A stretch of DNA of 44,822 nt. Origin: Chrysophaeum taylorii (lineage: Eukaryota > Sar > Pelagophyceae > Pelagomonadales > Pelagomonadaceae). The stretch is taken from positions 1-44,822 of the forward strand of contig JAQMWT010000505.1 of assembly GCA_029834535.1 (NCBI GenBank), written 5' to 3'. Below the pieces are notes generated by a model. The model was not told where the DNA came from. It saw nothing but the letters and a program-made list of their open reading frames with translations, and made no database searches. Of this stretch, positions 10,487 to 39,320 are shown piece by piece; the stretch's first letter is position 1, and each line of letters opens with the position of its first letter. The position numbers and the translations under genes are program-made.

Positions 10487-13044
10487 TGCTCAACCCTCGC
10501 CCTGTGATTATGACGTTGACGTTGCCACAGTCTGATTTTTCTCCATCAGAGCAACACGTTTTTCGTGAAGCCAACATGCAAGCTGTTCTTCTGGATGGCT
10601 GCAGTTCTGTGACTGTTGTTCCTGTTCGATCCATGCTTCATTTTCTGTACAATGAATCTACGCCGCTCTTCAGTTTGGGAGGTCCATCTCAGTCTGCAAT
10701 TACTGGCACCTTGATACTTCTATTGCCAGCGCGTTGGTCTGTCCGGCCGCACTTTGCATCTATTCCTCCCCTTGTGCATTCTCGTTGCCCCGATTTGTTC
10801 TACTATGACCCTCGTTTGTCTTCCGCTGTTGCTCCCTTGTCTCCTGTTTTTGATGCTCAGGAGCCGGCCTTATCGGGACTGATCACCCCAGAAACAATAC
10901 CAGAACCATCAGCTAACACTGCGAAAAGTGCACCATCACGTCGAGCCAAACAGAGCCGACCGCGCAAAGTCGACAAAAGCGCCCACTATTCAGAAACAGA
11001 AACAACTGGAAAACCAACTGGAGAACCCACTGAAACCAACAATTCTAGCGTTTTTCCACTACGCACTGCTGAATCAGTGTCATCTCGTGTCGATTCTGTG
11101 TCATCCTGTCATTCCCTGTATGTTAATTATGCTAGCTTTCGTTGGTTAGTTCATTATGTCTTCCTTCCCCTTTGTCTCGCCCATACCCTTGTTGATCCCC
11201 AATATGTCGGAGCCCATCGTGTCCTCTACTCTGCTTCCGAAGAAACCTCTCAATATTCTTACATTGATGACGGCGCTATCACTTCCACTCATTTACGCGA
11301 AGCTCTAGCCCATACAAATCCTGAACGTCCTGGGTGGTTACAAGCTATCGCCAAAGAACATCATCCCCTCGGTCAGCTCGGTTGCTGGGATGTTGTTCGC
11401 GTTCCTTCTACTTTTTCTGGCAACATCTGCACTTTGAAGTGGGTCCTCCGCAAGAAGTGTGAATCTGGTCGCTTCAAATCGTACAAAGCTCGTCTCGTTG
11501 TCCGCGGTTACACCCAGGTTCAAGGCATTGATTATCACGACACGTATTCTCCGGTAGCCAACATTGTTACTATCCGGATCTTTCTCACCTTCGTTGACGT
11601 TCATGACTGGGATATGCACAAGTTGGATGTTAGTTCCGCTTTCATACAAGCCCCGATTGCAGAAGATATCTATGTCTGACCACCCGAAGGCTATGCTCCT
11701 CGCAAACCCACAGATGGTTCCAGAATCATTTACAAGCTCCGTCGCTCTTGGTATGGTTGCGAGCAAGCTTGTCGCAATTCGTGGCTCTACTTATAGCGCT
11801 TCCTTGTCAATGATTGTGGTTTCGTCCGCGGATCTGGTGGCACTTGCAGTTACAAGCTCTTACTTAATTCCACTGTCGTTCTGCGCCTTGTTCTCGTCGT
11901 TGATGATCTTCTTGTGGCGCACCCCCGTTCTTGCATTGGCCATTACCACGCTTTCATGTTGCGTTTCAAAGCCTTCACTGATGTCAACGAACTCGATCTC
12001 CAAACTTACGTTGGTATACGCATTACGCGTGATCGAGCACGTCGCACGATCGCTATCGACCAATCCCATGCTATCCGCGAAATCCTCACCGAACATCGCT
12101 TCATCAACAGTAAACCCGAATTGACTCCCGCTCCCAAAGGTCTTCGTCTTTCTGCGGCTGATTGTCCTTCACACGGCTCCACCGATCAACTCTTTATGGC
12201 TCGCATCCCTTTTCGTCGTATTGTCGGTTGTGTCTTCTTTATTTCTGTTATGACACGCCCTGATATCACTAACTTAACTAACTTCAGACCTCTCCCGAGC
12301 ATGGGAGCCAGGCCGGACCGACAGGAGCCAGTCCGGAATCACGGGCCTGTAGACGAGGAGCGCCGAAAGGTCGGTCGGCGGAGAGTGACCATCAAGCTTG
12401 TCGCCATACGACGAGGAGACCGCGATGTGACTGACAACCAACTCGTCGATAACCTTCCGTCTTCGCCCCCCAGCCATACCCCGTCCCACTGCGAACGTTC
12501 CGGCTGCCAACCGGCCCGCCCGGGAGGCGAATAGGTGCCAACCTACGCCGGGAGGGCGGATGCCCTCGCAAGGCTCAGGATTCATGAGGCACCGTCCTCC
12601 ATCGCAACCACAGTCGGCGATCAGGGTAAGGGATATATACCTGATATCACTTGGAACGTTAATCAGTGTGCGCGTTTTACGGACAATCCTGGTAAGCCCC
12701 ACTGGCACGCCTTGAGTCATACCCTCCGTTATCTCAATGGTACTCAAGATCTTGCCCTCGTTCTTGGTCGCGATTCTACCCTTCGTCTCTGTGGTTATTC
12801 CGACTCCAGCTGGGCCGACAACCCCGATGATCGCCACTCCACCACTGGCTATTGTTTTCTGCTTGGTGGCTCTATGATTTCTTATTGCTCACGCTCTCAG
12901 TATCTCCTCGCCCGCTCATCTTTTGAAGCTGAGTTGCTCGCTCTTTACGCCGCCACTGCTGAACTTTCCTGGCTTCTCAAACTTTTTGACGATTTTGATC
13001 TCCCTCGTCACACTGCTCCTATTTATGTCGATAACAGCACCTAA
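10342..13044 (+). pseudogene. copia-2 protease-RT-RNase H, integrase missing
   Basis: Continues copia-2 after the gag frameshift. The protease-like motif is LLDGCSS (about residue 83), which lacks the Ser/Thr expected in LLD-S/T-G, followed by ITGTLILLLP. No zinc-binding or DDE integrase follows; a low-complexity linker leads straight into the RT (WVLRKKCESGRFKSYKARLV, YSPVA, KLDVSSAFIQAP). A TGA at 11677-11679 sits where the family has Trp before PPEGY. The YVDD box reads VVDDLLV. RNase H motifs are TRPDIT, YSDSSWAD, STTGYCF and FEAELLAL. The TRPDIT motif is split by short retroposon B, whose 381-base footprint (insert plus one target copy) keeps the frame. RNase H stops abruptly after YVDNST at 13042 where another copia body begins. 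Confidence 0.88.
12271..12639 (-). mobile_element. short retroposon copy B (SINE-like, long copy)
   Basis: A 369-base insert on the minus strand flanked by 12-bp direct repeats CCTGATATCACT (12259-12270 and 12640-12651). The tail (AAGTTAGTTAAGTT on the minus strand) lies at the left end. It carries the full 5' segment shared with copy C, plus about 10 extra AT-rich bases (TATATATCCC) at its 5' end. It interrupts the RNase H of copia-2, so it is younger than that element. Confidence 0.92.
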
Positions 13045-13053
13045 CTAAATAAC

Positions 13054-14181
13054 GTGGCTCGCAATCGCGTTGAATATATCTTTGTGCGGATAATACCAGC
13101 TCAGCATCATCATCAAGCTTATATGACCGATCATGCTATAGCCCTATTTTCTTCAATCGTGCCCGCTGTTGGTCCGCGTCGTGTCGACTCAGATATCCTA
13201 CACTGTCGCTTCAACCATATCAATGCCCAGCATATGCAAATGCTTCCTCGCATTGTGCAGGATGTCGACTTTACCACTGGACCATTATCGACCTTTTGTC
13301 CAGGTTGTGCTTTTGGCAAAGCGATTCGAGTTTCCCCAACTTCAAGTACGCGCACACGCGCCACGCGTCCATTTCAACTAGTACATGCTGACATTCTTGG
13401 ATTTCGTACGCGACCGAGATACGGCAATTACAAATATAGTCATGTTTTCTTGTGTGATTGCACTCAGGACGCTCGTCGTGATATGTTAGAGCACGAACGT
13501 CAAGCTTCTACTGCTCTGTCTGCCTTCTTACAGTTTGTTTCTAGTCAAAATTACAGAGTTGAGTGCATCTATATTGATCGGGCTGGCGAGTATGCTGGCG
13601 AATGGCAACAAATTTGCAATCAGAACGGCATTGCCCTGCGTCGTTCTCCTGCCCATGTCAAAGGAATGCATGGACGTGCCGAACGAAAGAGCCGCACTGA
13701 TGGTGAAAATTGTCGTGCACTACTCACCTTTGCACAGAGACCCATTGAGCTGTGGCTTTATGCGCTTGATACGTGCCCTTGTCTCTCAAATCGCCCTCCT
13801 ACGTCTACTAATCCTGGTTTCATCACCCCATATGAAGCGATCACTGGTGAGCGTCCAAGAACGTACTATTTTCGTGTTTGGGGATGTCCAGCATATCTCG
13901 TCACGCATGAGAAAGCTGGTGAAAACCCTCGTATACGTTGCAGTGGCATTTTTCTTGGCTATGTTCGTGACGGCCCAGGTTATTACATCATGGATGCCGT
14001 CACTGACAGGATCTTTACCTCATGGTCGGGCAATACTATCTTTGATGAGCGTTTTGCTCTCAGGAGTCCTCTCTCCGACTCAGATACGCGACGTTATACA
14101 TATATTTTTGTATATTCGCCTTCTACAACGGTCGCGTCTCGCCCTCCTTCTGTGGATGATAATCTGACGGGCTTGACTTAG
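13054..14181 (+). CDS. copia integrase (copia-3)
   Basis: A 375-residue frame carrying a GAG-pre-integrase zinc region (HCRFNHIN, then CPGCAFGK, about residues 48-88) and a complete-looking rve core. Catalytic residues are Asp in VHADILG (about 111), Asp in YIDRAGEY (about 174) and Glu in HGRAERKSR (about 210). The downstream segment YEAITGERP and VWGCPAYLV is typical of copia. The frame joins directly to the truncated RNase H of copia-2 and has no gag or protease before it, so this is the body of a different element or the product of recombination. The family function is strand transfer of cDNA ends in the nucleus. Confidence 0.88.
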   Translation: MARNRVEYIFVRIIPAQHHHQAYMTDHAIALFSSIVPAVGPRRVDSDILHCRFNHINAQHMQMLPRIVQDVDFTTGPLSTFCPGCAFGKAIRVSPTSSTRTRATRPFQLVHADILGFRTRPRYGNYKYSHVFLCDCTQDARRDMLEHERQASTALSAFLQFVSSQNYRVECIYIDRAGEYAGEWQQICNQNGIALRRSPAHVKGMHGRAERKSRTDGENCRALLTFAQRPIELWLYALDTCPCLSNRPPTSTNPGFITPYEAITGERPRTYYFRVWGCPAYLVTHEKAGENPRIRCSGIFLGYVRDGPGYYIMDAVTDRIFTSWSGNTIFDERFALRSPLSDSDTRRYTYIFVYSPSTTVASRPPSVDDNLTGLT

Positions 14182-14222
14182 CGGCAGCTCCTGTACCGGC
14201 CGCTGATTCAGTTATTGCCACT

Positions 14223-16229
14223 GTGCCTCATTCTGAAGTGGCTTCTTGTGATTCTGTATCTTCAGCAATGGACGTTGAGTCCATGCAATGTGACATTACC
14301 GCCACGTCACCATCTGTTGCCAATTTTGCCGCAACTGACGTTGCAAACGGATCCGGGGGGACGCCTCTGGAATCCATGAGTCAGCTTTCTCTTTATGGTA
14401 CCACTGACTCACCGCACATGGACGTTAACTTTCCTCGAACGTCCCAAGTGTCACAATTTGATGACACAAGGCACACACGTCGTGTTGCCACTCGTGCGGA
14501 GCAACGGCAACTTACTGCGCATTATATGCGCTTGCCTTTGTCTTGTCATCAAACGATCATGACTGCCATGACTCCAGCTACAAATGTTCTTCGTTCATTC
14601 TGCTATTTTGTTACTGTTGGTTTGTGTTTCCAGTCTACCCTTGATGAATCTGACATCAATCAAGTTGATGTCCGCGAAGCTTTAGGATCCCCTGAACGTG
14701 AGTCATGGATCAATGCGATGAATGATGAATATCGCACACTTGAACGTCTTGGTACTTGGGATGTCGTTTGGCTCCCACCTGATTTTAGTGGCAATATTTG
14801 TGGCACCAAGTGGCTTTTGAAGAAGAAGTATAAGGAGTCTGGTGAATTTGACAGATATAAAGCTCGTCTTGTGGTATTGGGTTATACCCAAGTGTATGGC
14901 GTCGATTATTTCGCAACTTATCCCCCAGTTGCTACGGCAACTACAGTAAGAGTATTTTTGTGTCGTGTCGCTCATCTCAATTGGGGAACTTGATATCAAG
15001 AATGCGTTCACACAAGCTACATTTCCGAAAATGTTTACGTTTGGGCCGCAGAGGGGTTTCCTATTCAACAACCACCATCGGGCTATCACGCTTTGAAACT
15101 CAAACGATCATGGTATGGTACTCATCAAGCTAGTCGTAGCTGGAATATCCTCCATCATAAGATTCTCACTGACTTCAGTTTTGTGGCAACTGACGCTGAT
15201 CGCTGCTTATATTTGTTTTACGTTCAAGTGCAGGTTGTCATCATGTTGATTGTGATTGTAGATGGTATGCTAGTGTCTTTTGATCGAGCTAACTCTCATC
15301 ATTACCAGCGTCTTGTTGTGTTCCTTCGGACACGTGTTCATTCACCTTCTGATGTTAAAGAACTGGGTTCAGCTTCTGGCTTTATTGGTTTTGAGATATT
15401 TCGCAACCGCCAAACGCGCACGATTCAATTACGCCAGACCAAAGCTATCAATGATCTGCTTAAGTTTGCGCGTCTGGGCCCTTCTCGAGTTGCTTCAACA
15501 CCAGGACAGCCAGGTGTTCATCTGTCAGCTGATTCTTGTCCGCAAATCAACTCTCCGGAATGGCATTATATGCAGCGTTTACCTTATCGAGGCACTGTTG
15601 GAGTTTTACTGTTCATTGCTATTATGACGAGACCTAATTTTCTGTTTCAAGTCGGTCAAGCTTGCCGTTTTGGTACTAATCCTGGTCGCAAGCACTGGAC
15701 ATATATTCGTCATATTCTGAAGTATCTGCATGGCTCACGCCACTTGTGTTTGACTATTGATGGCTCCAAATGGCAACAATTTTATATCTACTGAGACGCC
15801 GATTGGGCTTCAAATCCTGATTCGCGCCGCTCTGTATCTGGATATGTTTACATGCTGTGTGGCTGTGCTATCGCTCGGTATTCTTCTGTGCAACATCTGG
15901 TCGCTCGTTCTAGTTTCGAATTTGAGCTCATTTCCCTTTTTGGCTGCACTGCCTACCTGCTATGGCTTCGCCGCTTATTGACTGCTCTCGGTTTACAAAC
16001 GGATCCCGTGCCATTGTACATGGACAACAAGACTGTGATTCTTCGAATGAAAGAGTTTGCTATCACTAAACACACTCGTCATATCGGGATACGCTACTTT
16101 TCTGCAACTGACATGCTTAATGCTGGTATCATCGCTCCTGTTAAAGTCAACTCCAACTGGAATGCTCCGATTGCCCTACCAAGTCGAGCAAGTATGAGAT
16201 ATTTGCTCGACAATATGCCATTCTCTTGA
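14223..16229 (+). pseudogene. copia RT-RNase H with inactivated YVDD box (copia-3)
   Basis: Three frames carry one RT-RNase H: 14223-14993 (fingers: ERESWINAMNDEY, WLLKKKY, YKARLVVLGYTQ), 15093-15794 (palm and connection) and 15852-16229 (RNase H end: ARSSFEFELISL, YMDNKTVI, TKHTRHIGIRYF). Frameshifts lie near 14985-15060 and 15790-15850. The LDIKNAFT motif is readable near 14993 in a shifted frame. The catalytic box reads IVDGMLV instead of YVDDMLV: the second Asp is Gly, which would abolish polymerase activity independently of the frameshifts. The C-terminus at 16229 is followed by a purine tract and an LTR. Confidence 0.87.
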
Positions 16230-17860: not shown

Positions 17861-18174
17861 GCTTACTGGGGCCAGGTGAATTTACTGGGGTTAGAGTTTG
17901 GGATTAGGTGAATATAGTGACCAGGTGAACTTACTGTGACCAGATGAACTTACTGGGGGTTTTAGAGTAAACTCAAAGGTTAGCGGCGTGTGCGGATCAA
18001 GGCAGCTTAGATTGGCGGAGGCGAGAGCGACGAGCTCGAGGGAGTGGGTGTGAGCACGAGTGGGTTTACGCCGAACTTACTGGGGTTAGAGATTTGGACT
18101 AGGTGAACTTACTGACCAGGTGAACTTACTGGGACCAGGTGAACTTACTGGGGTTAAAGATTGGGACTAGGTGA
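17850..18174. repeat. AGGTGAACTTACTGG repeat array, copy A
   Basis: An irregular tandem array of a roughly 15-20-base unit (AGGTGAACTTACTGGGACC and variants) directly follows the helicase fragment. Two clusters are separated by a unique block (about 17960-18065) beginning GTTTTAGAGTAAACTC. The array continues at 27176-27200 on the other side of the gypsy insertion. It matches array B at 35620-35925. Its position at the end of a Helitron helicase gene suggests subterminal iterons, but that role is inferred. Confidence 0.85.
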
Positions 18175-18504
18175 TGTAGTGGTTTTCTCATATACCCGCC
18201 CCTCCTGGCCGTAAGGGGGCCTCAACAACCCTGCCTCCCAACCCGAACCGCGGGTGAAACCACCACACGCCCGATCTCAGCGCAATACCTCACGCCATCT
18301 CGAAATCGGACAATCAAAATGAGGGTAATATCAAGAAGACATCAAGAAAGCAACACAAATACCTGGTACATAGGGCTCAGTGGGAGCGCAGGTGAGGGTG
18401 TCAAGATGACACCCCCCCCATAATTGCAAGGTCAGTACCAGGGCAACAAGCAGGGTAAGTCATGTGGCAGGCAGGCAAGTGTGGGAATGGGCGTTACTGC
18501 CACA
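18175..18504 (-). repeat. 3' LTR of the gypsy element
   Basis: 330 bases, near-identical to 26845-27175, with TGTGGCAGTAACGCC at its minus-strand start and GAAAACCACTACA at its end. By eye it differs from the 5' LTR at about 13 positions, several clustered in a GC run near 18211-18218. Confidence 0.95.
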
Positions 18505-18520
18505 TAAGCCCCCTACTTGA
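18505..18520 (-). promoter_or_regulatory. polypurine tract of the gypsy element
   Basis: On the minus strand CTCAAGTAGGGGGCTTA lies immediately before the 3' LTR. A G-run directly inside the 3' LTR is the expected primer for plus-strand cDNA synthesis. Confidence 0.75.
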
Positions 18521-18825
18521 GATGAAGTCGTCCTCGACTTCAAAGGTGACGAAGGTCACGCTCACGAATGGTACGGTAAGCTCGGTCAGCTACATCAGCA
18601 GGAACTTTGTTGCTGTGGAGGCCGAAGTTACTGACGAGGACGTCGATATCATCCGGGCGAAAGTCAGTCACAAGGTTCACAGCCGTCCATATTCGTTCGT
18701 AGGCGAGTGAAGCTACCTCCGTCAGGGTCTTTGTCTTCTGGTCTTAAGCGTCGTTCTTCAGCAGAAGCGGTCGCAGAACAAACGTCAGTCTCCTCTGGTT
18801 TCCATGGTGCGGTTTCTCTCGGATA
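18521..18825 (-). other. gypsy 3' region after the integrase deletion
   Basis: Between the polypurine tract and the truncated integrase frame there is no DDE core and no recognisable chromodomain. Short minus-strand peptides can be read but hold stops. This is where about 250 codons of integrase core and C-terminal domain are missing. Confidence 0.55.
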
Positions 18826-19383
18826 TCAACGGCTATCTCGAACACCAAAACTTCTCGTCGAGCAGCAAAATTTGCCGGCTACTGTTCGACTCGCGCGGTT
18901 GACCGGTGCGACGGACTTACACGGCACAAGCCTTTTGCCTCGCAGAGGTCCAATCAAATCCATACCTACTACATAGCAGTCTCCGACGCGATTCGGTTGA
19001 CAGAGCAGGCCATGGCGCCTAGGCATGGTGGATCGAATCTTCTGGCAAATAATGCAGGCATTGACGAACTCATTAACGGATGATGAGACGTTTGGCCACC
19101 AATACCGTTCTAAGATCTGAGTCGCTGTGGAATCTCGTCCTACATGGCCTCCGAACAAGCCTCGGTGATGCATGGCGATCACACGCTTCTGCATAGACTG
19201 AGGGACCACAATAAGACGCTGAGAAGCTGGATCATCGACCTTATACAACACGTTGCCATCAATCTCATATGGTACGGATGACTGCTCGTCTTGATCTTTC
19301 TGTTCAGATTCGAGCTTTCGTCTGATGCGCTTGCATGTTTCATCCTCAGCTTGTTCTTTCGCTATCTCATCGAGATTGACCTA
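18826..19383 (-). pseudogene. gypsy integrase, zinc-binding domain only
   Basis: The minus-strand frame, the same frame as pol, encodes the H2C2 zinc domain: HHRGLFGGHVGRD, ILERYWWPNV and CIICQK. It then starts the core with VGMDLIGPL, which holds the first catalytic Asp, and loses homology within a few residues. The second Asp and the Glu of the DDE triad are absent. Translation upstream continues open to the TAG at 19381-19383 that separates it from RNase H. With the core gone this copy cannot integrate by itself. Confidence 0.85.
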
Positions 19384-20154
19384 ATCCCCCGCTTGATCCG
19401 CAAAAGGGAGACGTTCGACGGAGTCAACTGGCTCAGACTCGTACGAGAATTGAGGCGGTTGTACGTTCTGTCGCGTACTAACTGCTACCATAGCTGCGGT
19501 GGGTCCGCTGTCCGTCAGCATAAGCATCGTCACCGAAGAGAAGGTGAAGCAAGCTGTGCCAGGGACATCGGTGGGGATTTCTTGGAAAATCAAAAAAACT
19601 TTATTGATCGGCTCCCCGTCTTCATCTTTCTCGATCAATTTGTCGATAGGGTTGCGCGACTGAGAATCCGGAATACGCATGCCAGGGGAGCTTCCAGGTT
19701 TGTATCCGAGCTCCCGGTCGAACGCAGCAAGCCGCATAGCCCATCGTGCTAACTGTCCAGACGTATGATTCGAATCCCGCAGAAACGTTAAATTACGATG
19801 ATCCGTCTCTAACTTCGTCTGATGACCTTCGATATAAAATCGGAATTTTGCGAGAGCAGAGAGTACTGCGAGGAGTTCCAAGCGCCGAGGATCGTACTTC
19901 CTCATCGACTTAGGCACGGTTCGACTCCAGTACTCGATAACTCTCTCTTCGATTCTTTCTCTTCCATCGTCGTCAACGACTGGTACTTTTTGAAATAGGT
20001 AAGCACCCAACCCATGCGCGGAAGCATCAGTTCGAATGTAAAAAGGTAACGAGTAATCAGGATGATATACGCCCTTCGAAGTGACAATAGCCTCGAGGAT
20101 GGCATCCCAAGCTCCCTGACACTCTTTCGTCCACTTGAATTTCACGTCCGGCAA
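19381..20154 (-). pseudogene. gypsy RNase H
   Basis: 257 codons in the pol frame. They begin with the RT/RNase H connection (FKWTKECQGAWDAI), then the RNase H core with YIRTDASAHGLGAYL (first acidic residue), RRLELLAVLSAL (Glu), LETDHRNLTFL (Asp) and NPIDKLI at the end. A TGA at 20164-20166 separates it from the RT; the context (PL-stop-QLT) suggests an Arg codon CGA lost by a C-to-T change. It ends at a TAG (19381). RNase H would degrade the RNA strand of the cDNA hybrid. Confidence 0.9.
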
Positions 20155-20163
20155 CGTCAGTTG

Positions 20164-23100
20164 TCATAATGGCTCTGCAACTTTCGCAAAATTCCTTACA
20201 TAACGCCGGCAAAAACTCCCCATTCCAAGGAAAGATCGCACTTGCTTCTTAGGGTCAGCATCCGACAAAGTGCCAGGAATTGGCATGTGTCTGATGGCTT
20301 CTAAAGACCTTGGTGATGGAAGAAGTCCGTTCGGGGCAGATAAATGACCCAAAAACTCAATGACTTCTTGCATAAAATGAATCTTCTTGATCTTGGCGCT
20401 GTACCCCTTCAAAGCGAGATGGGGAATAACTTGCACAAGGCACTGCAAGTGATTCTTTGTATCTGCGTGACCGGCGAGAATATCGTCGATATATGCCACG
20501 AGATCACGATATAGCCATTGCGACAAGTCAGTGTTCAACTGCTTGCAAAACAAACTTCCGGCTGGTTTGACTCCCAAAGGTAGACGCAAGTAGCTGTACG
20601 CTCCCAGAGGACTAGTGAAGGTGACCACATCTTGTACATCTAGCGACAATCGTAAATTGTGATAGCCCCAACGAATATCCAAACTGGAGCGACAAAACTT
20701 GTCAATGAGAAACATCAACTTGTCAGCCATGCTCACACTCGGCCAGCTATCATCCTTGAGCAATGCATTGAGGCGCCGTAGGCCGACAGCTGCTCTGTAA
20801 GCATTGGAAGTGCCAGGCTCGGCACCTTTCTTAGGCAACATCAAAATAGGGAAACCCCATGGAGAATTCGCGGGACGAATAACTCCGTCTCGGGTCCATG
20901 CTTCAATCTGCATCCGCAAACATTCAATCTTTTCTTTCGACAACCGATATGGCGAGAGTTTGACGGGAGTCGGGTTCTCTTCTTTGAACCGGAGCGTCAC
21001 TTTAGGTGAATCAACAGGTCTCATCACATCATCGAAAAATGCCCACGAATGCGAGATTAAATGCTTCATCATCAGCTTCTCGTCATCATCTAAAGCAGGA
21101 TGCTCAGTAATACCCAATTCAGTCATCACCTCTTCGACCTGCGCGACGGTCGGAGGGATGACCTGTATGCTCTCCTGATCCGCTAAATGAGGAGGCATCA
21201 CCGGTGAAGGTTGACCATGTTCGTCGTGAGGCGCGTCCGCCCACGGAACGTCGTACGTATTGAAATACGCTGGTCGCTCTTTCGCGGTGCCTTCTTCTTC
21301 TTCAGCAGTTGCGGAGGGCTGGTTATCAACTTGGTTGCTCTGCATAACAGCAGTGGCGACGGTGCCCCCTGCAAAAGATGAAGCCGTCCCAGGCGACGTA
21401 ACTGAAGGTGGTGGCGGGGTGGTGGGGGCAGCAGCTGATGGTGCAGGACGCGCAGGAGAATAGAGTTCATCGGGCGCAATCCATGATACACTTCGAGTGG
21501 CAGGGTCGAGCGTTGGAATGCGCGACTCTACAGCAAAAGGTGAAGACAGTAGAATATGGTGATCAGGTTGGGCTAGCGTAGTCGTCGCAATATTCCGCAA
21601 CTTACCCAAATTTCGAAGTGAAGGGTCAATCAAATTGTGCACTGCTAGCGCAATCCGCGTCATAGTCGCGGGTGGCACCATACTGCCAAGCATCTTCATA
21701 GCTACTGTCTCGGAAACTGTCGCACCCCATTGCCACGTAGCAGGAACGGTCATAATTTCCTGGTGCATCTGCAACGTGAGTGGACGGGTGTTCGAAAAAT
21801 GAGGTCCTAAGTGGAGCTTATTGCGCGTCACCGTGAAGGCAGGGCCGATAGCCGGGCGCGTAGATGAGAAACTGTTTACTATAATGAGCGGGTGACCACC
21901 TGTAAATCCCAACGCTGGGCCAAAACGGTCCTTTAAATTCGGTGGTACACGCGATAATAACGGCAGGTTCAAGCGAACATTGCACGCAAGTAGGCGCGTG
22001 CGCGAGCACAGCAATTCGGGTGTAATACTATAAAAATCAACAATACGCGGCACATCAAATTGGTGATGCTCAAAAGGGATCACTGATGGTTCCTGCTCGA
22101 GCGACCATCGTCCAATCACATAAGGTGCGTTGCGGAAGTGACGCAGGACCCAAGAAGTAATAGTAGCACCCTTGCGTGCGTCCCTGTAGTGCAAATTGGC
22201 AGTCGATCCATAGATACACGACGGACTGGCGTGAAAATAAGAATGCTTCCAAAAATCTGAGTGTAAATACGACAACACCAGGTCGTATGTACGACGATGA
22301 CATTCCCCCAACTCATGCAAAACATAGGGAATCTTCGGAAAATTGAGCTCAAAGGTGGCTCGGGCTTGAGGACAAGCATCCAAAGCCAGGACAATGCGAA
22401 ATGAACTGCCATATAGCTCATTGCATCGCCGGATACCCAACGTTGATCCTCCAGCGCCAGCAAAGTAGACGACGACAAAGGTGTAGGTGATGGGTATCCA
22501 AACCAAGGAGGCGTGCTTAGATAGCAGCTCCTTAGCAGTCGCCTCCATCTCCATTTCTGGTGTTTTTTTCACTTCTTCATCTGGAGGTGGCTGAGGAGGA
22601 GGTCTGTCACTCAAGACATCCTCCCCGACTTCATCGTCGTCAACAGCAGCCGTAAGAGTGGCATGACACACGTCATCAGTGGCTCCTAGCTGCATGTTGA
22701 CACATCCTTCATGCGGCATGATCTCGCCTTCGACCACCGGGACTTCGGGGTCGATACCAATGGGTTCGTCACCAATGTGCTCCACAGCCACATGAACTTC
22801 GTTGGGCTCATCAGCACAATACGATGAATAGGAACCAGGTACAAGGCGGAGATCTTGGAGGAGTGACCGATAAGGTCGGAATACGTGACCCTTTTCCAGC
22901 GGCACATCACCCTCCATCTCCAAGAAGTACGGTTGGCTTGGAAGAAGAAATCGAGTACTCGTCACGTACGCGAAATGAGGGATGATATCTTCCTCGTCTG
23001 CAGGGCATTCAAGTTGGCCTTCAGCTTTTTCAGCAGTCTGATCACCGGGAGGAATGTGATGGTGATTCGATCTGATACGAATAGAACGCAATAGACTGTC

Positions 23101-24312
23101 ATAACTCCACGGTTTACCAACTGGCGTCCAAGTTTGGATGTTTCCGTATTGCACAGCAAGCTTAGCTGTCGGGAACATCTGCACTACCTGCGGAGTCGCA
23201 TCGAATGCATCATTGTAAAGGACAATTCCATGCTGGTCTTGTGGCGAGGCGGAAGTCCGATTCTTGAGAACTCCAATGGTCACTTCAGAACGCCGAAAAA
23301 TAGCTCTCTCTGTCGCATAATCCAAAATCGTACCCAAGAGTCGTAATTCTCGTGCTCCTAATAGTAAGTGCCCATTCGTTAGACCAACGAAGAACATGAG
23401 CAGCATGGATGTCGTCGGCACCAAGGAGATCCGGAGGACGACCCATTCTCGAATAGCAGCTCCCGAACCTCCTGATCCGCTTAGAGTGCGAATAGTAGGG
23501 AGTGGCTGACGATAGATGATTTTGCCGTCACGATCAAGTTTGCGATACAAGCGGTGATCGATGTGGGGGGAATCAGCCATGCCATCCAAACCGGCAGCGA
23601 TGATGGAATATTTCGAACCATCTAGCGAAGAGATAGCCACAGGCACATACGTCAAAGAGGCGGATCTCGTGCCATCGTACCTTGCGGCTTTATTTTCACG
23701 ATGGTCGGGATTCTGAGTGATATTCAACGCAGTCTGAGGGCAGGAACTCTCGAAATCCGAAGAGATGGAAGGGTGAGCGGCATAACTCTCGGCACAGTCG
23801 TCCCTCGGTGTCACTATATCCATGGCAACCAAGGTATCTTGTCTCACACGAACAATCGTATACCCCAATTCGTCACGATTATCTTCGTCTTCCGAAAGAA
23901 CTCTAGATGCAACTCCAGTCACTTCGGTACTTTGCTCCTGCTCCTCCACCCATGCGTCTTCAGTGATGACCAGAAAGGAATGAGGTTCCATGGGGTCACC
24001 AGGGGAATAGCCTTCTGCAGAGAAGCTATCATCATCGCCCCCAACCTCGTCATCGTCATACACGTTGCCCTCCATGAGCTCAGAATACTGCTCAGTGCAG
24101 TAGTCCGCTCGCTTAGTGTCATCCTGATATTCGCCAAGCACTTCAAGCCACTGAGCGGCGATACCATCATTGTGCTGGCTAGGGTTCGCTCTCTGAGACT
24201 GTCGCCCTCTACCCGGCGGTGCCGTCTGCTGTGCCTGACGAATCAAGTTCATCGTGTTGAGAGCCGTAGTCAGATCCTCCAGGCGCACCGAGGTCTGAGC
24301 GATCCGCTGCAC
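20164..24312 (-). CDS. gypsy Pol: protease-like, DNA methyltransferase and RT
   Basis: 1382 codons open without a stop. Residues 1-190 are Gln-rich and then acidic. Around 210-345 is a retropepsin-like fold signature, LDGMADSPHI (about 240) and LLLGARELRLLGTILDYA (about 325), but the D-S/T-G triad reads D-G-M. Residues 608-890 form a C5-cytosine methyltransferase (separate entry). Residues about 1060-1382 are the RT: VKLSPYRLSKEK, RRLNALL, SLDIRWGYHNLRL (Asp), LPLGVKPAG and AYIDDIL (about 1273, both Asp present), then IEFLGH and SFLGMGSFCRRY. The listed start is a GTG, so the true product is probably a gag-pol fusion: gag is in the same frame and ends at a TAG only two codons upstream (24319-24321). 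RT and methyltransferase frames are intact. Confidence 0.93.
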   Translation of the reverse strand: MQRIAQTSVRLEDLTTALNTMNLIRQAQQTAPPGRGRQSQRANPSQHNDGIAAQWLEVLGEYQDDTKRADYCTEQYSELMEGNVYDDDEVGGDDDSFSAEGYSPGDPMEPHSFLVITEDAWVEEQEQSTEVTGVASRVLSEDEDNRDELGYTIVRVRQDTLVAMDIVTPRDDCAESYAAHPSISSDFESSCPQTALNITQNPDHRENKAARYDGTRSASLTYVPVAISSLDGSKYSIIAAGLDGMADSPHIDHRLYRKLDRDGKIIYRQPLPTIRTLSGSGGSGAAIREWVVLRISLVPTTSMLLMFFVGLTNGHLLLGARELRLLGTILDYATERAIFRRSEVTIGVLKNRTSASPQDQHGIVLYNDAFDATPQVVQMFPTAKLAVQYGNIQTWTPVGKPWSYDSLLRSIRIRSNHHHIPPGDQTAEKAEGQLECPADEEDIIPHFAYVTSTRFLLPSQPYFLEMEGDVPLEKGHVFRPYRSLLQDLRLVPGSYSSYCADEPNEVHVAVEHIGDEPIGIDPEVPVVEGEIMPHEGCVNMQLGATDDVCHATLTAAVDDDEVGEDVLSDRPPPQPPPDEEVKKTPEMEMEATAKELLSKHASLVWIPITYTFVVVYFAGAGGSTLGIRRCNELYGSSFRIVLALDACPQARATFELNFPKIPYVLHELGECHRRTYDLVLSYLHSDFWKHSYFHASPSCIYGSTANLHYRDARKGATITSWVLRHFRNAPYVIGRWSLEQEPSVIPFEHHQFDVPRIVDFYSITPELLCSRTRLLACNVRLNLPLLSRVPPNLKDRFGPALGFTGGHPLIIVNSFSSTRPAIGPAFTVTRNKLHLGPHFSNTRPLTLQMHQEIMTVPATWQWGATVSETVAMKMLGSMVPPATMTRIALAVHNLIDPSLRNLGKLRNIATTTLAQPDHHILLSSPFAVESRIPTLDPATRSVSWIAPDELYSPARPAPSAAAPTTPPPPSVTSPGTASSFAGGTVATAVMQSNQVDNQPSATAEEEEGTAKERPAYFNTYDVPWADAPHDEHGQPSPVMPPHLADQESIQVIPPTVAQVEEVMTELGITEHPALDDDEKLMMKHLISHSWAFFDDVMRPVDSPKVTLRFKEENPTPVKLSPYRLSKEKIECLRMQIEAWTRDGVIRPANSPWGFPILMLPKKGAEPGTSNAYRAAVGLRRLNALLKDDSWPSVSMADKLMFLIDKFCRSSLDIRWGYHNLRLSLDVQDVVTFTSPLGAYSYLRLPLGVKPAGSLFCKQLNTDLSQWLYRDLVAYIDDILAGHADTKNHLQCLVQVIPHLALKGYSAKIKKIHFMQEVIEFLGHLSAPNGLLPSPRSLEAIRHMPIPGTLSDADPKKQVRSFLGMGSFCRRYVRNFAKVAEPL
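21640..22490 (-). other. cytosine-5 DNA methyltransferase domain inside gypsy Pol
   Basis: Motifs appear in the family order. Motif I is YFAGAGGSTLGI (about residue 614), which binds S-adenosylmethionine. Motif II is ALDACPQARATFELNFP. Motif IV is HASPSCIYGSTAN (about 698). Motif VI is GRWSLEQEP (about 735). Motif VIII is ITPELLCSRTRLLAC. Motif IX is RPLTLQMHQEI. Motif X is MLGSMVPPATMTRIALAV (about 873). The catalytic Cys of motif IV is present but is preceded by Ser instead of the usual Pro (codon TCG where CCG is expected), so activity of this copy is doubtful. C5-methyltransferases methylate cytosine in DNA. DNMT capture by retrotransposons is known in Symbiodinium and Klebsormidium. The domain is in frame between protease and RT with no intron. 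Confidence 0.9.
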
Positions 24313-24318
24313 TGCGGG

Positions 24319-26055
24319 CTACCTTCGGACCACCTGTTGTTGAGAGCCTGCAACCAAACGCTGCTGAGTGCCTGCAACCAGCTGCTGTTGACCTGCACCT
24401 GGCACCTGTGCTGCTGTGTAGACCACCTGCGGCTGTTGCACAACGCGCGGCGCCAGCTGAGTCATTGAAGCCTGTCCTGCTGCAGCTAAAAGCGTCCGTC
24501 GGTATTGCTCCTGTCCCTCTGGCGTTGCTGGAAAACCCGCAGCCGTCAACGTCTGAGCAGCACGCCTCTTCCTCGAGGGATTGTCCGACACAGGACATAC
24601 ACCGTTGTCGTGGTAAAAACTACCATGCCGGCCGCAACTGAGGCACGTCGTAATTGCTTGACGCGTATGGTTATCTATCCCCTGTGGTAGCCAGGTTCCA
24701 ACTCCGGAGTCAGCAACATAGCCAACCCGTTGGACTGGCTGCAACTGCTGCCTCTGCTGCTGCTGCTCTCTCCTCATCCGTGGTGCGTGCTCCTTTCCTC
24801 TCTCCTTCTTAATCGCCTCTTCGATGTTGGCAGTAGGGTTGGCTTCCAGAATCTTGGAAATTTGGATAGTCAATTGAATGACATCGTTGAGGGTGAGAGT
24901 ATATGCCTTCATATGCGGTGAGGCCTGAGCAAGTTCGACGCTCGTCCGCAAGCGCTCAGAATTGAGACCAGCAATGAAGTGCGAACGGAACGCAGCCGGA
25001 TCAGTATCGCGACCTGACATTGCTCTCCACTGGCCTAATTTCTGCACCCATCGCGCGATATACTTATTCAATGACAAATTCCCTTGCCGTAAATTGAGCC
25101 ATTCACATTCAAGCCTCAACCGTAGCCCGAGGTGGACAAGGAAGCTTCGTCGCCTCTTGCATAGCATCCAGACAGTCCTCATCATGCTGGCGCAACTCTT
25201 TCATTGTGATGGTCCCATCCTTGTATTGTTTCCACATCTGCGGCCGTTCAACTCCCACTTGCGATAAGCTTCCATAGGGGCGAGTTGATACTCGCCTCCA
25301 ATCACATTCATCGCTATTGAGGGTTTATCAATCTTGCCTTCCATCATACGCCGCAATTGCATCCACCACGCGTCCACCTCATCACGGTCCTTGGTAATTT
25401 GCCCCGTGAGATTCGAAAATGTGATACGTGTCATACCAGCAGCTCCCTTCTTGACACGAAGTATCTCTTCTTCGTCACGAGGACGCGCCGAACCGGGGTC
25501 AGTATGATGGTGCGGGGTAGGCTCCGGTCGACTTCGCGGTGGCTGATCGTCGGTCAATGCCGATACAGCGTCATCATCGTCGTCGGGCGTAACACGCGTA
25601 GCATTCGGAGAGATTGGCCGTGCCTCTCGAGCATGCGCCCGCATGGATTCCTCCATCATTCGCCGAAGTCGATCGTTGTCGATCCGCTGTCGCTCCACTT
25701 CTGAGCGTTGTTGTTGAGCGTCGCGGCGGGTGTTCTCAAGTTCACGTATGACTTGCTCCATCTGCGACTGGTACATCTCGAATCGTTCGTTGATGGTCTG
25801 CAGAACCTCGGGGTCGACATCCACGCGAAAATCTGTCGCTCTCGTATTCGCAGATGGTGGCCTAGGAGGTGCACTCTCCTCTGGTCCACGCATCGCCGTA
25901 AACGGTCCGGGTTCCGCTCGAGATGACTCCGTAGTATTCATCGCACGTTCGTAGGGTCGTGCGTACGGGAACGTCGGCTCACCTTGTCTTGAAGTTGCGT
26001 CTGGCGCAACCGTAGCTCCCCCTTCGCCGCCGCGTGGATCCGGAAGGATGACCAC
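24319..26055 (-). pseudogene. gypsy Gag
   Basis: The N-terminal part (25201-26055) has a Pro/Glu-rich start, a Gln/Glu/Arg-rich helical stretch likely to be a coiled coil (VIRELENTRRDAQQQRSE, about residues 100-135), an acidic linker, and a matrix/capsid start (DAWWMQLRRMMEG). The C-terminal part (24319-25185) carries the capsid helices (LNKYIARWVQKLGQW, FIAGL) and a zinc-knuckle variant CLSCGRHGSFYHDNGVC, then a Gln/Val/Gly-rich tail. The same frame is used at both ends. Between about 25115 and 25240 the coding runs in another frame, so two compensating frameshifts are present. It ends with TAG at 24319-24321, in frame with Pol. Confidence 0.85.
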
Positions 26056-26427
26056 GCTTGAGGGGCTGTAGAGGCTATCAGATGATCTAGCCTCTCTTCC
26101 GATGCCACTTTCCTTGGCTTCCGGCCGTTGAAAGGGCGCACTGAACGGTGTTCTTCCAATAGACGCAAATGGAGTCCCTGCACTGAATCGTTGCAGACGC
26201 TCCTGTGCGTCCCGAAACTACTGCGATCGTTCTGTCATTGGCCTCTCTGCCATGATCGCGATTTGCCCGGATAATAGGTTTGTTCCGGACGTTCTCAACT
26301 CACTTGTTGTATTCTTTTCGTCAGACGACAATTGCCGGCAGCCGTCTGACTAATGCGCGCTGTACCGGTGCGCTGGTCTTACGGAAGCACTTGCCTTGCG
26401 CGTGAAGACTATGGACGGCCTTCCCGG
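26056..26427 (-). other. gypsy 5' leader, unique part
   Basis: Between the first Gag ATG-like start at 26055 and the leader repeat. A minus-strand frame is open at 25938-26183 but shows no known domain. This is untranslated leader or the true N-terminus of Gag if an upstream start is used. Confidence 0.4.
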
Positions 26428-26668
26428 TGTTGTCGCTCGCCGTCAGGGAGGTGGTCTGCCTCGCGCGAGCTAAGTTAGGTCTTACTCTGTCTTTGCCTGG
26501 TTAGGTCTTACGATGCTTTGCCTGAATGAGTCGTAGTGACTCCGCCGGTGCTGTCGCTCGCCGTCAGGGAGGTGGTCTGCCTCGCGCGAGCTAGGTTAGG
26601 GCTTACTCTTTCTTTGCCTCGTAGGTCTTACGATGTTTGCCTAAATGAGTCGTAGTGACTCCGCTCCC
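26428..26668. repeat. 121-bp tandem duplication in the gypsy leader
   Basis: Two adjacent copies (starting about 26431 and 26552) of a unit containing TGTCGCTCGCCGTCAGGGAG, GCGCGAGCTA and GAGTCGTAGTGACTCCG, with small differences. It sits in the untranslated leader between primer site and gag, where retrotransposons often keep packaging or promoter elements. The function is not shown. Confidence 0.85.
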
Positions 26669-26822
26669 CGTTCGATCCGAATCACGTAAAATGAACCCCG
26701 CGGCGGTACCCGCGATCCTCTGGATCTTCACCCACAAATGCGTCGGCTTCGCACTCACTCGACCGTTACGAACCGACTCGCCGCCGAAAAACAGGAGATC
26801 GATAGTCCGGGAGTTGGACTAT

Positions 26823-26844
26823 CGATTCCCGTTTCTGAGACCAC
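26823..26844 (-). promoter_or_regulatory. primer-binding site of the gypsy element
   Basis: Reading the minus strand, TGGTCTCAGAAACGGGAATC begins one base after the 5' LTR end. A TGG start followed by sequence complementary to a tRNA 3' end (acceptor stem, then GATTCCCG of a T-arm) is the expected primer site. The tRNA species could not be identified from the window. Confidence 0.75.
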
Positions 26845-27175
26845 TGTAGTGGTTTTCTCAGATACCCGCCCCTCCTGGCCGGACCGGGGGCCTCAACAAC
26901 CCTTCCTCCCAACCCCAACCGCGGGTGAAACCACCACACGCCCGATCTCAGCACAATACCTCACGCCATCTCGAAATCGGACAATCAAAATGAGGGTAAT
27001 ATCAAGAAGACATCAAGAAAGCAACACAAATGCCTGGTACATAGGGTTCAGTGGGAGCGCAGGCGAGGGTGTCAAGATGACACCCCCCCCATAATTGCAA
27101 GGTCAGTACCAGGGCAACAACCAGGGTAAGTCATGTGGCAGGCAGGCAAGTGGGGGAATGGGCGTTACTGCCACA
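26845..27175 (-). repeat. 5' LTR of the gypsy element
   Basis: 331 bases matching 18175-18504. TG...CA ends and the adjoining GTGA at 27176 define the boundary. Transcription would start in this LTR and proceed leftward. An eight-base C run (about 27082-27089) and the duplicated AGGCAGGCAAG segment are conserved in both LTRs. Confidence 0.95.
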
Positions 27176-27179
27176 GTGA

Positions 27180-28029: not shown

Positions 28030-30037
28030 CGGGGTCATCGCCGGGGCGTGGGGCAGGCGAAGAGAGGACGGGCCCCGCCCGTAGGTCGTACGCATGCTGC
28101 CGCCGGACGTATGTGCGACGAAGGGTGACGTCCTGCTGGGATCGGGCGGCCTGGGTGGGGTTCCCCGAGGCGGCGACATGGGTGAGGGCGGTGAGGGCAC
28201 AGCGAGCCCGGCCTAATGCGTTGGCGATCCCCCACTCACGGTAGATGCGGCGAGTTTGGGCCGCCTTTGCCTTACCCTGATCGCCGACCGCATGGTTGCG
28301 ATGGAGGACGGTGCCTCATGAATCCTGAGCCTTGCGAGGGCATCCGCCCTCCCGGCGTAGGTTGGCACCTATTCGCCTCTCGGGCGGGCCGGTTGGCAGC
28401 CGGAACGTTCGCAGTGGGACGGGGTATGGCCGGGGGGCGAAGACGGAAGGTTATCGACGAGTTGGTTGTCAGTCACATCGCGGTCTCCTCGTCGCATGGC
28501 GACAAGCTTGATGATCACTCTCCGCCGACCCACCTTTCGGCGCCCCTCGTCTACAGGCCCGTGATTCCGGACTGGCTCCTGTCGGTCCGGCCTGGCTCCC
28601 ATGCTCGGGAGAGGTCTGAAGTTAGTTAGTTAGTTAGTTAGTTGCCTCTGTGAAGTTGGCGCAGCCGCTTGTCACCCAGGTTCGCGCAGCGATGCGCTCT
28701 GCGCATGTTTGGGCGAGAGCGTGGCACGCCGCGCTGGCCTCACCGAAGGCACCAAAGACGAGGCCGGCGACGGTGCCGTAGCTACGTAGCCGCTGTTCGA
28801 CAGGGCCCAAGAAGCCAGGCGGTGCTGCTGTACCCGGCTGGGGGATGATGGCGTCGATACCGCGGGCGTGAGCGAGGTATTCGTAGTGGACTTGCGCTGC
28901 GCGCCGATCGACAGGCGACGGGTGGGAGGGATGGAGGGCGTGGGCGGTGTACAACGAACCCCAAGCGAGGGCTTTGATGTCGTAGAGTTGCTCCTTGTTG
29001 TCGAGCGTGGTGAGGATGTCTGCGACGACTTGACGTCGGGCGAGATTGCCTCGGTACCGGCCGTAGAGGCGCGTGCGAATGGTAGGGGAGACGACGTGAG
29101 CAAAGATGCCGAAAACCTCGGACAGGGCTGGGATGCCGGCCTCTTTGACGCTGCAGTGGACGCAGTCGAGCTGGCCGTCATGCCAGGTGGTCCGCGCTCC
29201 TCCGCGGTTGACAAGGTTGGCCTGCGTGAGAAGCACCTTGCCGTGAGCGTCGAGAACGACGTCAGTGCCCAGAATGCGAGTGCCCACGAGGCCCAAACAA
29301 GCTGGAGAGGGGTAGCCAAAGTACTGGGCACACATCTCAGCCCAGCAGCGGTTGGGGATTTGAAGGGCAGAGCTGGGCCACGAGCTGATGAACGTGGTCG
29401 AGAAGCGATCCCATGAGGACGCCGCTACTCGAAGTGCTTCGGTGATGGGAAGGGTGGCCGCAAGGCGCTGGAGTGCAGTGGCCCGAGCTGTCTCGCGCTG
29501 GGAGGTTAGAGCACGCTGGAGTTGGGGTATGAGCACGGGTGTCGAGATGGTGGGGTCGACGAGGACGCCCATGGAGACGAATTCGTGGGAGAGAGGACCG
29601 TCGACGAGATGAACGTTGGCGGGATCGCCGGAACCAGCGCCGCCGTGGGAAGCCAGCGTGGTACGGAGATCAGCCCGAAGTCCGTCCCACGCAGTCTCGA
29701 GTGCTCGCCCCAGGCGGCAACCGGATGCGAGGAGGTGGTGCCAACGGTGCAACTCGTTACCTGTGCGAAAAGAAGTGGCACCCAGGACCGAGGCGAGGCG
29801 GGGGAGGTAGCCAGGGACCTCCACGGCACCCGTAGGATCGCGAAGGTCGACGAGGTGTGGGAGGGCCTGGGCCGCCGTGCCAACAAAGGCGGCGGGGCTG
29901 AGGTTGGCGCAGGAGCGAATGCCGCCACCCCCACTTCGAGTAGGAAGGCGGAGGCGTTTGGCGGACGATGCCGGTGGAGTCAAAAACCTGACGCGGATCT
30001 GCGCCAAGTGCCGTGGCGACGAAGCTGAGGACGGCAA
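28030..30037 (-). pseudogene. non-LTR element C-terminus, restriction-like endonuclease
   Basis: The frame (467 codons to 28634, continuing after the short-retroposon insertion to about 28030) carries the thumb region GGGGIRSCANLSPAAF, a Cys pair CVHC (about residue 296) before a His, and VADIL (about 336) followed by LYDIKAL (about 350). Together these fit the spaced acidic-Lys pattern of a PD-(D/E)XK nuclease. VDRRAAQVHYEYLAHARGID and SYGTVAGLVFGAFGEAS follow, which I know from proteins of many microalgae. The domain would nick the target for target-primed reverse transcription. The 375-bp footprint of retroposon C is a multiple of three but adds foreign codons and a stop. Confidence 0.8.
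28272..28641 (+). mobile_element. short retroposon copy C (SINE-like, long copy)
   Basis: A 370-base insert starting TTACCCTGATCGCCGAC and ending in five TTAG-type repeats. It is flanked by TTGCC (28267-28271 and 28642-28646). The matching site at about 16891-16900 is empty, which proves the insertion and its boundaries. It is inserted in the opposite orientation to the host non-LTR element. It keeps the same (TTAG)n tail as copies A, B and D. Confidence 0.95.
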
Positions 30038-32558
30038 CGTCGAAGCGGCGGAGCGCGCTTAAGGCATTGGTGGGGTAGCAGTGTTGCGCGATGTAGTCCA
30101 TGCGCGGGGCGATGCAGTAGCGGCCCAACGAGTACATGCAGTGGAGGGTGACGTTCTGGAGCTTGGTGCGAATACGGCTCATGTAGCTCACCTGAGCGTC
30201 AACCTCGCGTTGCAAGGTAGCTTCGACATAGGCATCTCCGGCGTGGCCGGGGGTGCCGATGGGCACACCGTAGATTACGAGGCCGTCGGCGACAACGGGG
30301 ATACCAGCAAGAGTACGCGTGCCGTCAGGCACAACTTGGGCGTGGTCGTGAACATCGGGGTGGTCGAGAAGACCCATGCCAAGTGCTGGACAGAACGCCA
30401 CGCACTTGTCGAGGCGGAGCTCCTCGCCGCTAGCTTGGATGTCGCGGGCGTACTGCAGGAGGGCGTCGACAACCTCACGAGGGGAACCAGAGATGACGCC
30501 GTCGTCCATGCCAAATCGGGCGTAGCCGGCACATGAACGTAAGCGGGTGTCAAGGGCCTGTGCGGCGTCATGCGTTGCCAGACAGTACGCCGGTGGATAG
30601 GTGGGGTCGCCTTGCTGGCCGCCTTCTTGAGAGTCGAAGGGGGCGCGATCGAGGCCGGTGGGGCCGTGGAGGGCCACCCAGGATGCCGGCCGTAATTGCT
30701 TGAACATAAAGTGGCCAAAGGCACGCAGCTTAGCGTTGGCGTGGTTTGCGAGTTTGTCCACGACGGTCCGGCGCTTGAGCTCGTTGAAGGCGTTGCGTTT
30801 GTCCAGCTTGATGATGACCTGGTCGGGGTACTGCTCCGCGTGGGTGCGGACGCCAAAGACGAGGCGCGAGGGGCCGCCCTTGACCCCGACGGCAACGTTG
30901 ATCGGGTACAGTGCCTCAGAGAGCTCGGAGTGGAGGCTACGCACAAGGCACCGTCCAGTGGCACGGCGGCGGACGGTGCCAATGCCGATAGGTCGAACGT
31001 CAGGTGCTTGGTTAGCGTCAGCGGCGCGTCGTTTTACCAACGGAATGAGGGTTACCGTGGTGGTGATGAAGTAATGCCAGTCAGGAAGAGCTCCACGAAC
31101 GAACGAGGTCTCAAGATTGTCGATTTTGTCCATCGCCGAGCGTGCCTTGACGTTGCTCGGGAAGGGCTGGGCGAAAACGGAGAGGAATTCATTGCGGCAC
31201 TGGTCGGGGCCCACACCAGCCTTCGGCCGGAGCGTGCGGTAAGTTTCACGCAGGGCGACCGAGAGTGTGGCGAGCCCTTGCGGGTGGTTGGGGAAAGTGT
31301 GAAGGTCCTCCTTGCGAGCAGGATGTTTGGACACGAGTTGGCGCATGACGTCTGGGTGGCATGGGTCGGCGATGCCCAGGCTGGTGAGAATACGGCACGC
31401 CCGAGAGAGGTCGCCAGATTCAGCGAGTCGCAATGCACGAAGTGCGTCCGCGTCATCGTCGGGGGCCGCCCGTGAGCGTACATGGGAGCGCACGCGAGTC
31501 ACGTCGTGGAGGTAGCCGTCAATGAGGAGGTCGTAACGCCCTGCGGCGAAGGCCGTAAAGCGGTCAGTGAGCACGTCGGGCCGACGGGCGCCGCCTCGTG
31601 GTGCTCGCCGAAGAAGTAGGCTGTGAAGGCTCATGTACCAAAGGAGGGCACGGTCACGAGCGTTATCGGAAGTGGCGTCTTCAAACCATGAACACACCTC
31701 GGCCATTGCGCTCGCCCATGCCTCGCGGAATTGGGCGGGAATGGTGCGAATGCAAGAGCACGGCGATATAATGAGGTCTTTGATGGAGACCTCGTCGATC
31801 GCAGAGCGCAAATCGCTCAGGTCACGTGGACGGCGTGTCGGGAGGGAGGGGGCTGGCCCGGATGACGTAGGGTGGGCGGGGGCAACAGACGGTGGCGCCG
31901 AATGTGACCGAGGCCCAATGGGAGAAATGCCAGGAGACGCGCTCGTGGAGGCTGCAGCCGTGACAGGGGTGTTGCGGTGGCTGGTGGCAGGGCCAGGGGC
32001 GCGGCGGTTGCCGGCGGCAGCGGCGGGGGTGGAGGGGGTGCTAGTAGTGGGGTGGTCCGGGTGCCAGCGGCAGGGGTGTGGCGGCTGGCTGTTGCATTCG
32101 CAGTGCGGTTGCCAGACGCAGTGGTGCGGCGGTTGCCAGCGGGAGGGGTGGTAGGGGTGTTGCGGGTGCCAGTGGATCGCGTGCGGGAGCCAATGTGGGA
32201 GAGGCGGGCGGCACGGGCAGCTTGAGCAGCGTGGGCGGCAGCGCGATGGGCGAGGTAAGCGTCGGCGCTGGCAGCAGCGGCGGCGGCCCGTCCCGTGTCG
32301 AGTTGGAGTGCCGCAGCAGCGGCAGCAGCAGCGTGCATAGCGGCGAGATGGCGTTCCGCAGCAGCAGCGGCTCGAGCGGCAAGGGCGGCGTCGCGCATAC
32401 GCGCTCGAATGCGATATCGGGCGGTAGTGGCGGCAAGGGCTGCAGCAAGTGGGAAAATGCGGTGGGGTGCGGCAGCGCGGACCTGGAGGAGAGAGTGCAC
32501 AGACACCCAGCGTTGATGAGGGCGGACCATGCGTATAGGACTGCGGCAGTTGGGGCAC
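29757..32558 (-). pseudogene. non-LTR element reverse transcriptase region
   Basis: 933 codons, of which about 1-160 are probably out of the true frame. From about 230 onward the protein is well ordered: RDLSDLRSAIDEV, then the RT with VGPDQCRNEFL, QAPDVRPIGIG (about 535), KLDKRNAFNELKRR (about 582, first catalytic Asp), QQGDPTYP (about 646) and FGMDDGV (about 681, both Asp of the xxDD box present), then a thumb. The RNAFN form of motif A is shared with RTs of many algal and protist non-LTR elements. The frame is lost near 29960, where the endonuclease frame takes over. The RT would copy element RNA at the nicked target. Confidence 0.87.
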
Positions 32559-39140: not shown

Positions 39141-39320
39141 CTAGTAAGGCCAAGTCGTTTTTTTCCGGCCTTTTTCTCGGGGGGCAAGCCCCCCCAACCC
39201 CCCGAGAATTGGGGGGCTCTGACCCCAAACCCCCCGCCGGGGGACACCCCCGGACCCCCCAGGGCCTCGAGGGCCGCCGTGTCTCGGGAGCCGAGCAAAA
39301 ACGCCGTCTCACGCCGTGGA
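39141..39320. repeat. array block R1, unit 1 (G/C palindromes)
   Basis: Begins CTAGTAAGGCCAAGTCG, then the self-complementary GGCCTTTTTCTCGGGGGGCA and GCCCCCC runs and CCCCGAGAATTGGGG. It ends with AAAACGCCGTCTCACGCCGTGG. Copies lie at 41217, 42577 (partial) and 43530. It can form several strong hairpins or G-rich structures. Confidence 0.8.

Follow-up and report, generated by a model that had tools for sequence, protein, structure and literature searches.

A predicted C5-cytosine methyltransferase within the Pol frame of a decayed Ty3/gypsy retrotransposon in Chrysophaeum taylorii

We analysed a stretch of 44,822 nucleotides from the pelagophyte Chrysophaeum taylorii (GenBank assembly GCA_029834535.1, contig JAQMWT010000505.1, positions 1 to 44,822), here called the window, which contains a long terminal repeat (LTR) retrotransposon at 18175-27175 on the minus strand with a predicted C5 DNA methyltransferase (DNMT) domain upstream of its reverse transcriptase (RT). 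The direct repeats at the two ends of the element have TG...CA termini, differ by four transitions, seven transversions and one gap (Kimura two-parameter distance 0.034 over 330 columns) and are bordered by a target-site duplication (TSD) of 4 bp. A first-pass annotation of the window had described the element as spanning 20164-24312; the element is real, but this extent is too small and leaves the RNase H and the integrase stretch outside. The LTRs, primer binding site, purine-rich tract and TSD that had been reported around the open frame were all located. The features are, in the order of the minus strand:

27176..27179, minus strand: TSD copy TCAC, 5' side (the 5' flank ends ...GTTCAC)
26845..27175, minus strand: 5' LTR, 331 bp, TG...CA
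26822..26843, minus strand: putative primer binding site TGGTCTCAGAAACGGGAATCGA, separated from the 5' LTR by one base
25201..26055, minus strand: first Gag-side open frame (284 aa), in which no Pfam family passes its cut-off
24319..25185, minus strand: second Gag-side open frame (288 aa), with a weak match to Retrotrans_gag (0.044, below its cut-off)
20164..24312, minus strand: main Pol frame, 1382 aa, in the order protease-like region, spacer, DNMT, linker, RT
23278..23655, minus strand: protease-like region, motif DGMAD ... LLGARELRLLGTILDY
21568..22542, minus strand: predicted C5-cytosine methyltransferase domain with motif IV SPSC, at about residues 591-915
20167..21192, minus strand: RT region, residues about 1041-1382, Pfam RVT_1 1.3e-12
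19381..20154, minus strand: RNase H in its own frame, RT_RNaseH 8.1e-27
18950..19260, minus strand: integrase zinc-finger stretch and, after it, the opening residues of an integrase core that is then cut off (approximate limits, by eye)
18505..18517, minus strand: short polypurine-like tract AGTAGGGGGCTTA, adjoining the 3' LTR
18175..18504, minus strand: 3' LTR, 330 bp, TG...CA
18171..18174, minus strand: TSD copy TCAC, 3' side (the 3' flank starts TCACC)

The layout of the primer binding site is presumably that of the complement of a tRNA 3' end, comprising CCA, the 7-base acceptor strand, the 5-base T-stem and part of the T-loop. Repeats containing AGTAAGTTCACCTGGTCC surround the element. 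The window copy is decayed; it holds RNase H and a cut-off integrase core, and its zinc finger (near 19200-18950) was placed by eye, the Pfam test for this part having been confined to siblings. The order RT, RNase H, integrase is present in two sibling copies, L002 and L018. L002 is open from Gag through into RT over 1812 aa and has RNase H (1e-24), Integrase_H2C2 (8.4e-17) and rve (1.3e-6, below its cut-off) in further frames, and L018 likewise matched RNase H and Integrase_H2C2 in Pfam. The gypsy-type RT had been reported to share a frame with the DNMT, and it does; among solved structures the best match was 4ol8 (7.2e-23), which we take to be Ty3, followed by the Ty3-G Gag-Pol structure 7q5b (6e-22). 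Direct LTRs, a short TSD, a Ty3-type RT and the domain order of the siblings thus identify the element, at the level of sequence, as a member of the Ty3/gypsy group. It resembles Ty3 in its RT and in the RT-RNase H-integrase order of its siblings and differs from it in the protease-like motif, DGMAD; to our knowledge, Ty3 has no DNMT. The protease itself had been claimed with more confidence than we can give it: the region before the DNMT has the position and layout of a retropepsin, but its motif is DGMAD rather than D-S/T-G-A, and none of three members gave a Pfam match there.

The assignment of the captured domain is in line with several comparisons. All seven C5-methyltransferase motifs quoted in the first-pass annotation are present in the minus-strand frame 20164-24312, and PF00145 matched both the whole Pol frame (1e-6, 28.9 bits) and the domain cut out of it (3.2e-8, 33.8 bits, against a cut-off of 22). 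PF00145 was likewise matched in 13 of 13 rows at E <= 0.1. Tblastn gave 34 rows at 30 loci of family A, the window's own family, and motif IV could be read in 30 of these rows: 28 read SPPC, one SPPR, and the window alone SPSC, a pattern that is unusual for the family and keeps the catalytic cysteine. The PC of motif IV and motifs VI, VIII and X are present in siblings. The predicted fold, which rests on the L018 sibling domain (an AlphaFold model built from near-identical rows, with a predicted local distance difference test score, pLDDT, of 33, was not used), agrees with the profile and has M.HaeIII, DNMT1 and M.HhaI as its best matches, DNMT3 and these three all lying within about 3 Z units. 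We therefore conclude from family profile and predicted fold that the domain is a C5-methyltransferase. By sequence profile no DNMT3 chain matched it at E <= 10.

The sequence profile also touches three DNMT2 chains weakly (E 0.48-1.9), and DNMT2 methylates tRNA. This raises the alternative that the domain is an RNA C5-methyltransferase acting on the RNA of the element or on its primer tRNA; RNA is the target that the Discussion of PMC5890265 proposes for the SymbioLINE DNMTs. From the predicted fold, DNA and RNA enzymes cannot be told apart, and a CpG decay signature is absent among the copies (see below). The top structural matches, however, are enzymes that act on DNA, by a margin of only a few Z units. 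Gypsy elements moreover make double-stranded cDNA before integration, which we count against an RNA enzyme, and on balance we consider this alternative unlikely.

Family A comprises at least 47 matching stretches at no fewer than 34 places, the window included, a lower bound since scoring covered 34 of 1973 first-look candidates. A 21-base LTR start (up to 2 mismatches) occurred 356 times, against none for the reversed control. Among the matches listed, pairs of LTR starts bracket DNMT-bearing stretches at C339 (locus L017) and at C57 (a PF00145 match), as judged from the LTR-start matches alone; L017 lies between two same-family matches on its own strand and supplies the other LTR-flanked DNMT copy that the earlier proposal called for. 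A gypsy copy might also have inserted beside or into a host methyltransferase gene, so that the juxtaposition arose by chance and the fusion would be no gene of the element. The DNMT part is, however, present by tblastn in each of the 30 fetched family-A loci, of which the window is one, and also in relatives from other sources; 24 of the 47 family-A rows start ahead of residue 591 and extend past 1150, that is through the DNMT into RT; and the two host-like DNMT genes described below belong to other classes. Given the many sibling copies and the DNMT-bearing relatives, we reject a chance fusion, which appears extremely improbable.

A second gypsy family, family C, has at its locus L061, where the domain order was read, a DGMAD protease-like motif, a DNMT (PF00145 7.5e-4; at 19.4 bits the frame is below the cut-off of 22) and RVT_1 (4e-14) in the next frame. 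Its protease-DNMT part was found in at least 74 stretches (68 of 1346 candidates scored). In one subgroup of this family (C5, C22, C311 and others), 19 of the rows listed share 69-70% identity with L061, 18 of these 19 are stop-free in the matched part, and frames reach 3067 aa; this is perhaps, judging from the open frames and identities, the youngest DNMT-bearing group.

A protein search with the RT returned 30 proteins at 1e-10 among 4881 candidates. Five of them are close relatives (55, 52, 48, 46 and 41% identical), and the next ones drop to 31-33%. A DNMT precedes the RT in P0002 (MMETSP), P0003 and P0004 (both ENA) and P0005 (JGI); P0004 holds only the second half of the domain, and the sequence of P0001 begins in the linker before RT. 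In Pfam, only P0005 among the five scores in its DNMT (0.056, below the cut-off), and its motif IV is SPSC. P0001 is labelled as a protein of a Pseudomonadota metagenome-assembled genome, yet its RT is the one that is 55% identical to the window element, and it probably stems from a eukaryotic contig in a bacterial bin. The order DNMT then RT is common to two gypsy families of this genome and to relatives elsewhere. An RT tree of 33 rows splits off the eight rows of this lineage with support 100/100, and a DNMT tree of 7 rows, in which P0003 and L061 are loosely placed, does not contradict it at any strongly supported node. A single old capture with subsequent descent is the best account of the lineage, and transfer between hosts may have contributed. 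Searches with the DNMT alone gave no protein match, neither at 1e-3 among 2876 candidates nor at 0.01 among 7997 scored ones, and no match in viral or genome contigs, and a phage collection yielded six weak records, the best at 8e-4.

The DNMT seems to have been maintained by selection. Between the window and the more distant L018, the ratio of nonsynonymous to synonymous substitution rates (dN/dS) is 0.091 in the DNMT, 0.052 in RT and 0.26-0.52 in spacers and linker, and in 50-residue steps along residues 601-900 it stays at 0.05-0.10; these values are rough, because dS exceeds 1 for most parts. They indicate that the DNMT domain is under purifying selection between subfamilies. The linker between DNMT and RT (window 21163-21462, Pol residues 951-1050) has a dS of about 0.41-0.42 in the same comparison, the lowest of all steps with a value (0.68 and more elsewhere), which indicates conservation at the DNA level. 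The domain could have been retained for a structural or nucleic-acid-binding role, for example as a cDNA chaperone or in integration targeting, with catalysis of minor importance: it has been kept even where motif I is degenerate (P0002) and where motif IV reads SPSC (window and P0005). The low dN/dS along residues 601-900 and the SPPC of 28 of the 30 readable family-A rows speak against such a role, which we regard as improbable.

We believe that the window most plausibly holds, with somewhat better than even confidence, a decayed copy of an old Ty3/gypsy lineage that carries a C5 DNMT in Pol between the protease-like region and RT, and whose DNMT marks cDNA or chromatin. The enzyme would be made as part of Gag-Pol and packaged together with RT, and could methylate cytosines of the new cDNA before or at integration, or those of neighbouring chromatin, so that a new copy would enter the genome pre-marked; a DNMT5-like enzyme of the host could afterwards maintain the mark. 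Candidate benefits are passing as host DNA, protection and lower harm to the host. The sequence comparisons indicate that the capture is old and common to elements from other sources, and suggest an enzyme captured long ago and retained for its benefit to the element. Several observations weigh against this account. Motif IV of the window copy itself reads SPSC, and in P0002 motif I is degenerate and motif IV is TPDC, so the enzyme may not be active throughout the lineage. Apart from the dS above 1 already mentioned, the window and its close copy L002 differ with a dN/dS of 0.36 in the DNMT and 0.69 in RT, both from few changes. Transitions per base are 0.0137 at CG, 0.0121 at CHG, 0.0148 at CHH and 0.0172 at A/T sites (42 blastn stretches of >= 85% and >= 300 bases from 27 of 29 loci, L018 and L019 being too distant; columns with >= 8 rows and one base at >= 60%), and the observed/expected CpG ratio of the element is 1.02. 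CpG transitions that are not raised speak against long-lasting CpG methylation of the copies, or for efficient repair, and the flat rate lends no support to the element methylating its own copies.

Retrotransposon-encoded DNMTs are a rare and known puzzle, in which a parasite carries the enzyme that usually silences it, and those described in the available text of PMC5890265 are precedents for the gypsy DNMT lineage. KnitGypsy-Dnmt3 of Klebsormidium nitens is, like the element described here, an LTR Gypsy whose Pol frame contains a C5 DNMT under purifying selection. According to the same sections its DNMTs are Dnmt3-related, the K. nitens genome also having a multi-exon Dnmt3 gene, and its repeats are DIRS-like (PMC5890265), whereas the window family, compared by description, has FxGxGG and SPPC motifs and plain direct LTRs. 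Symbiodinium likewise has many retrotransposon-borne DNMTs per genome, with the SymbioLINE enzymes forming an orphan class, but the carriers given there (SymbioDIRS-Dnmt3 and SymbioLINE-Dnmt) are DIRS and long interspersed nuclear elements (LINEs) rather than two-LTR gypsy or copia elements (PMC5890265). The orphan eukaryotic DNMTs of PMC12344493 are similar in that they are C5-methyltransferases outside the known eukaryotic families, some of them in mobile elements; in its accessible parts the elements said to contain DNMT3 are 'LTR Copia and DIRS', whereas orphans are assigned to LINEs and to insertions of giant viruses, and its main text does not use the word gypsy. A general remark in the available portion of PMC6338049 could cover such elements, although it does not assign the methylases to individual clades and mentions no gypsy element whose cytosine methyltransferase is of a class other than DNMT3; neither methyltransferase nor methylase occurs in the available text of PMC5963040. 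At the level of titles and abstract beginnings, the open-licence literature gave no description of a gypsy element with a non-DNMT3 DNMT. The proposal that a Ty3/gypsy element captured a C5-methyltransferase is thus borne out by PF00145, the predicted fold and the sibling copies, neither of the two outcomes named beforehand as refuting it having been observed. It is likely to be a further capture, since by sequence profile the domain cannot be recognised as DNMT3, the class found in the Klebsormidium Gypsy.

The genome also holds a copia-type family with a DNMT. In loci L042 and L047, PF00145 (2.4e-8 and 4.2e-8) lies downstream of a LIDGGAS stretch that is protease-like by eye, the part of L047 that contains it having no Pfam match. 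One place, C96, combines PF00145 (L047), an integrase core (L062; rve 0.0015, below its cut-off) and RVT_2 (L063; 6e-39), so that with the DNMT upstream, integrase before RT and an RVT_2-type RT its order is that of Ty1/copia. The DNMT part occurs in at least 116 stretches (112 of 654 candidates scored), has a dN/dS of 0.08-0.18 between L047 and L042 (residues 301-600) and lacks a recognisable motif I. The window has Ty1/copia remnants of its own at 2587-14993 (RVT_2, rve, SH3), which resemble this family in the integrase, that of L062 being 26% identical (6.6e-14) to the remnant at 2833-3411, and not in the DNMT part. Profile comparison found no link between the gypsy and copia DNMTs (probability 0.15); since both profiles are shallow, the two may nevertheless share descent. 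Among 30 of 124 PF00145 matches examined, two were host-like genes, one DNMT2-like and one DNMT5-like, and the remaining 28 all belonged to the copia-type family, a survey with a ceiling on candidate numbers in which introns may hide DNMT1 or DNMT3. It is conceivable, but in our view doubtful, that gypsy and copia elements each carry a separately captured DNMT after the protease-like region, that these are the only DNMTs besides the DNMT2- and DNMT5-like ones, and that retrotransposons supply de novo methylation which a host enzyme maintains. The candidates scored for the three DNMT-bearing families (34 + 68 + 112) amount to more than 200 places in a genome of about 71 Mb. An apparently old trait under selection in gypsy elements of several sources, joined here by a copia DNMT family, would offer a compact system for testing the function of retrotransposon DNMTs, if the host can be grown.

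Elsewhere in the window, overlapping long frames (467, 933 and 904 aa) in GC-rich sequence at 28634-34531 gave no Pfam match at 0.01. A search that may skip simple repeats turned up no exact arrays of TTAGGG or TTTAGGG. Positions 39128-44822 of the window contain strongly repeated units at spacings of about 2 kb, in GC- and CpG-rich sequence.

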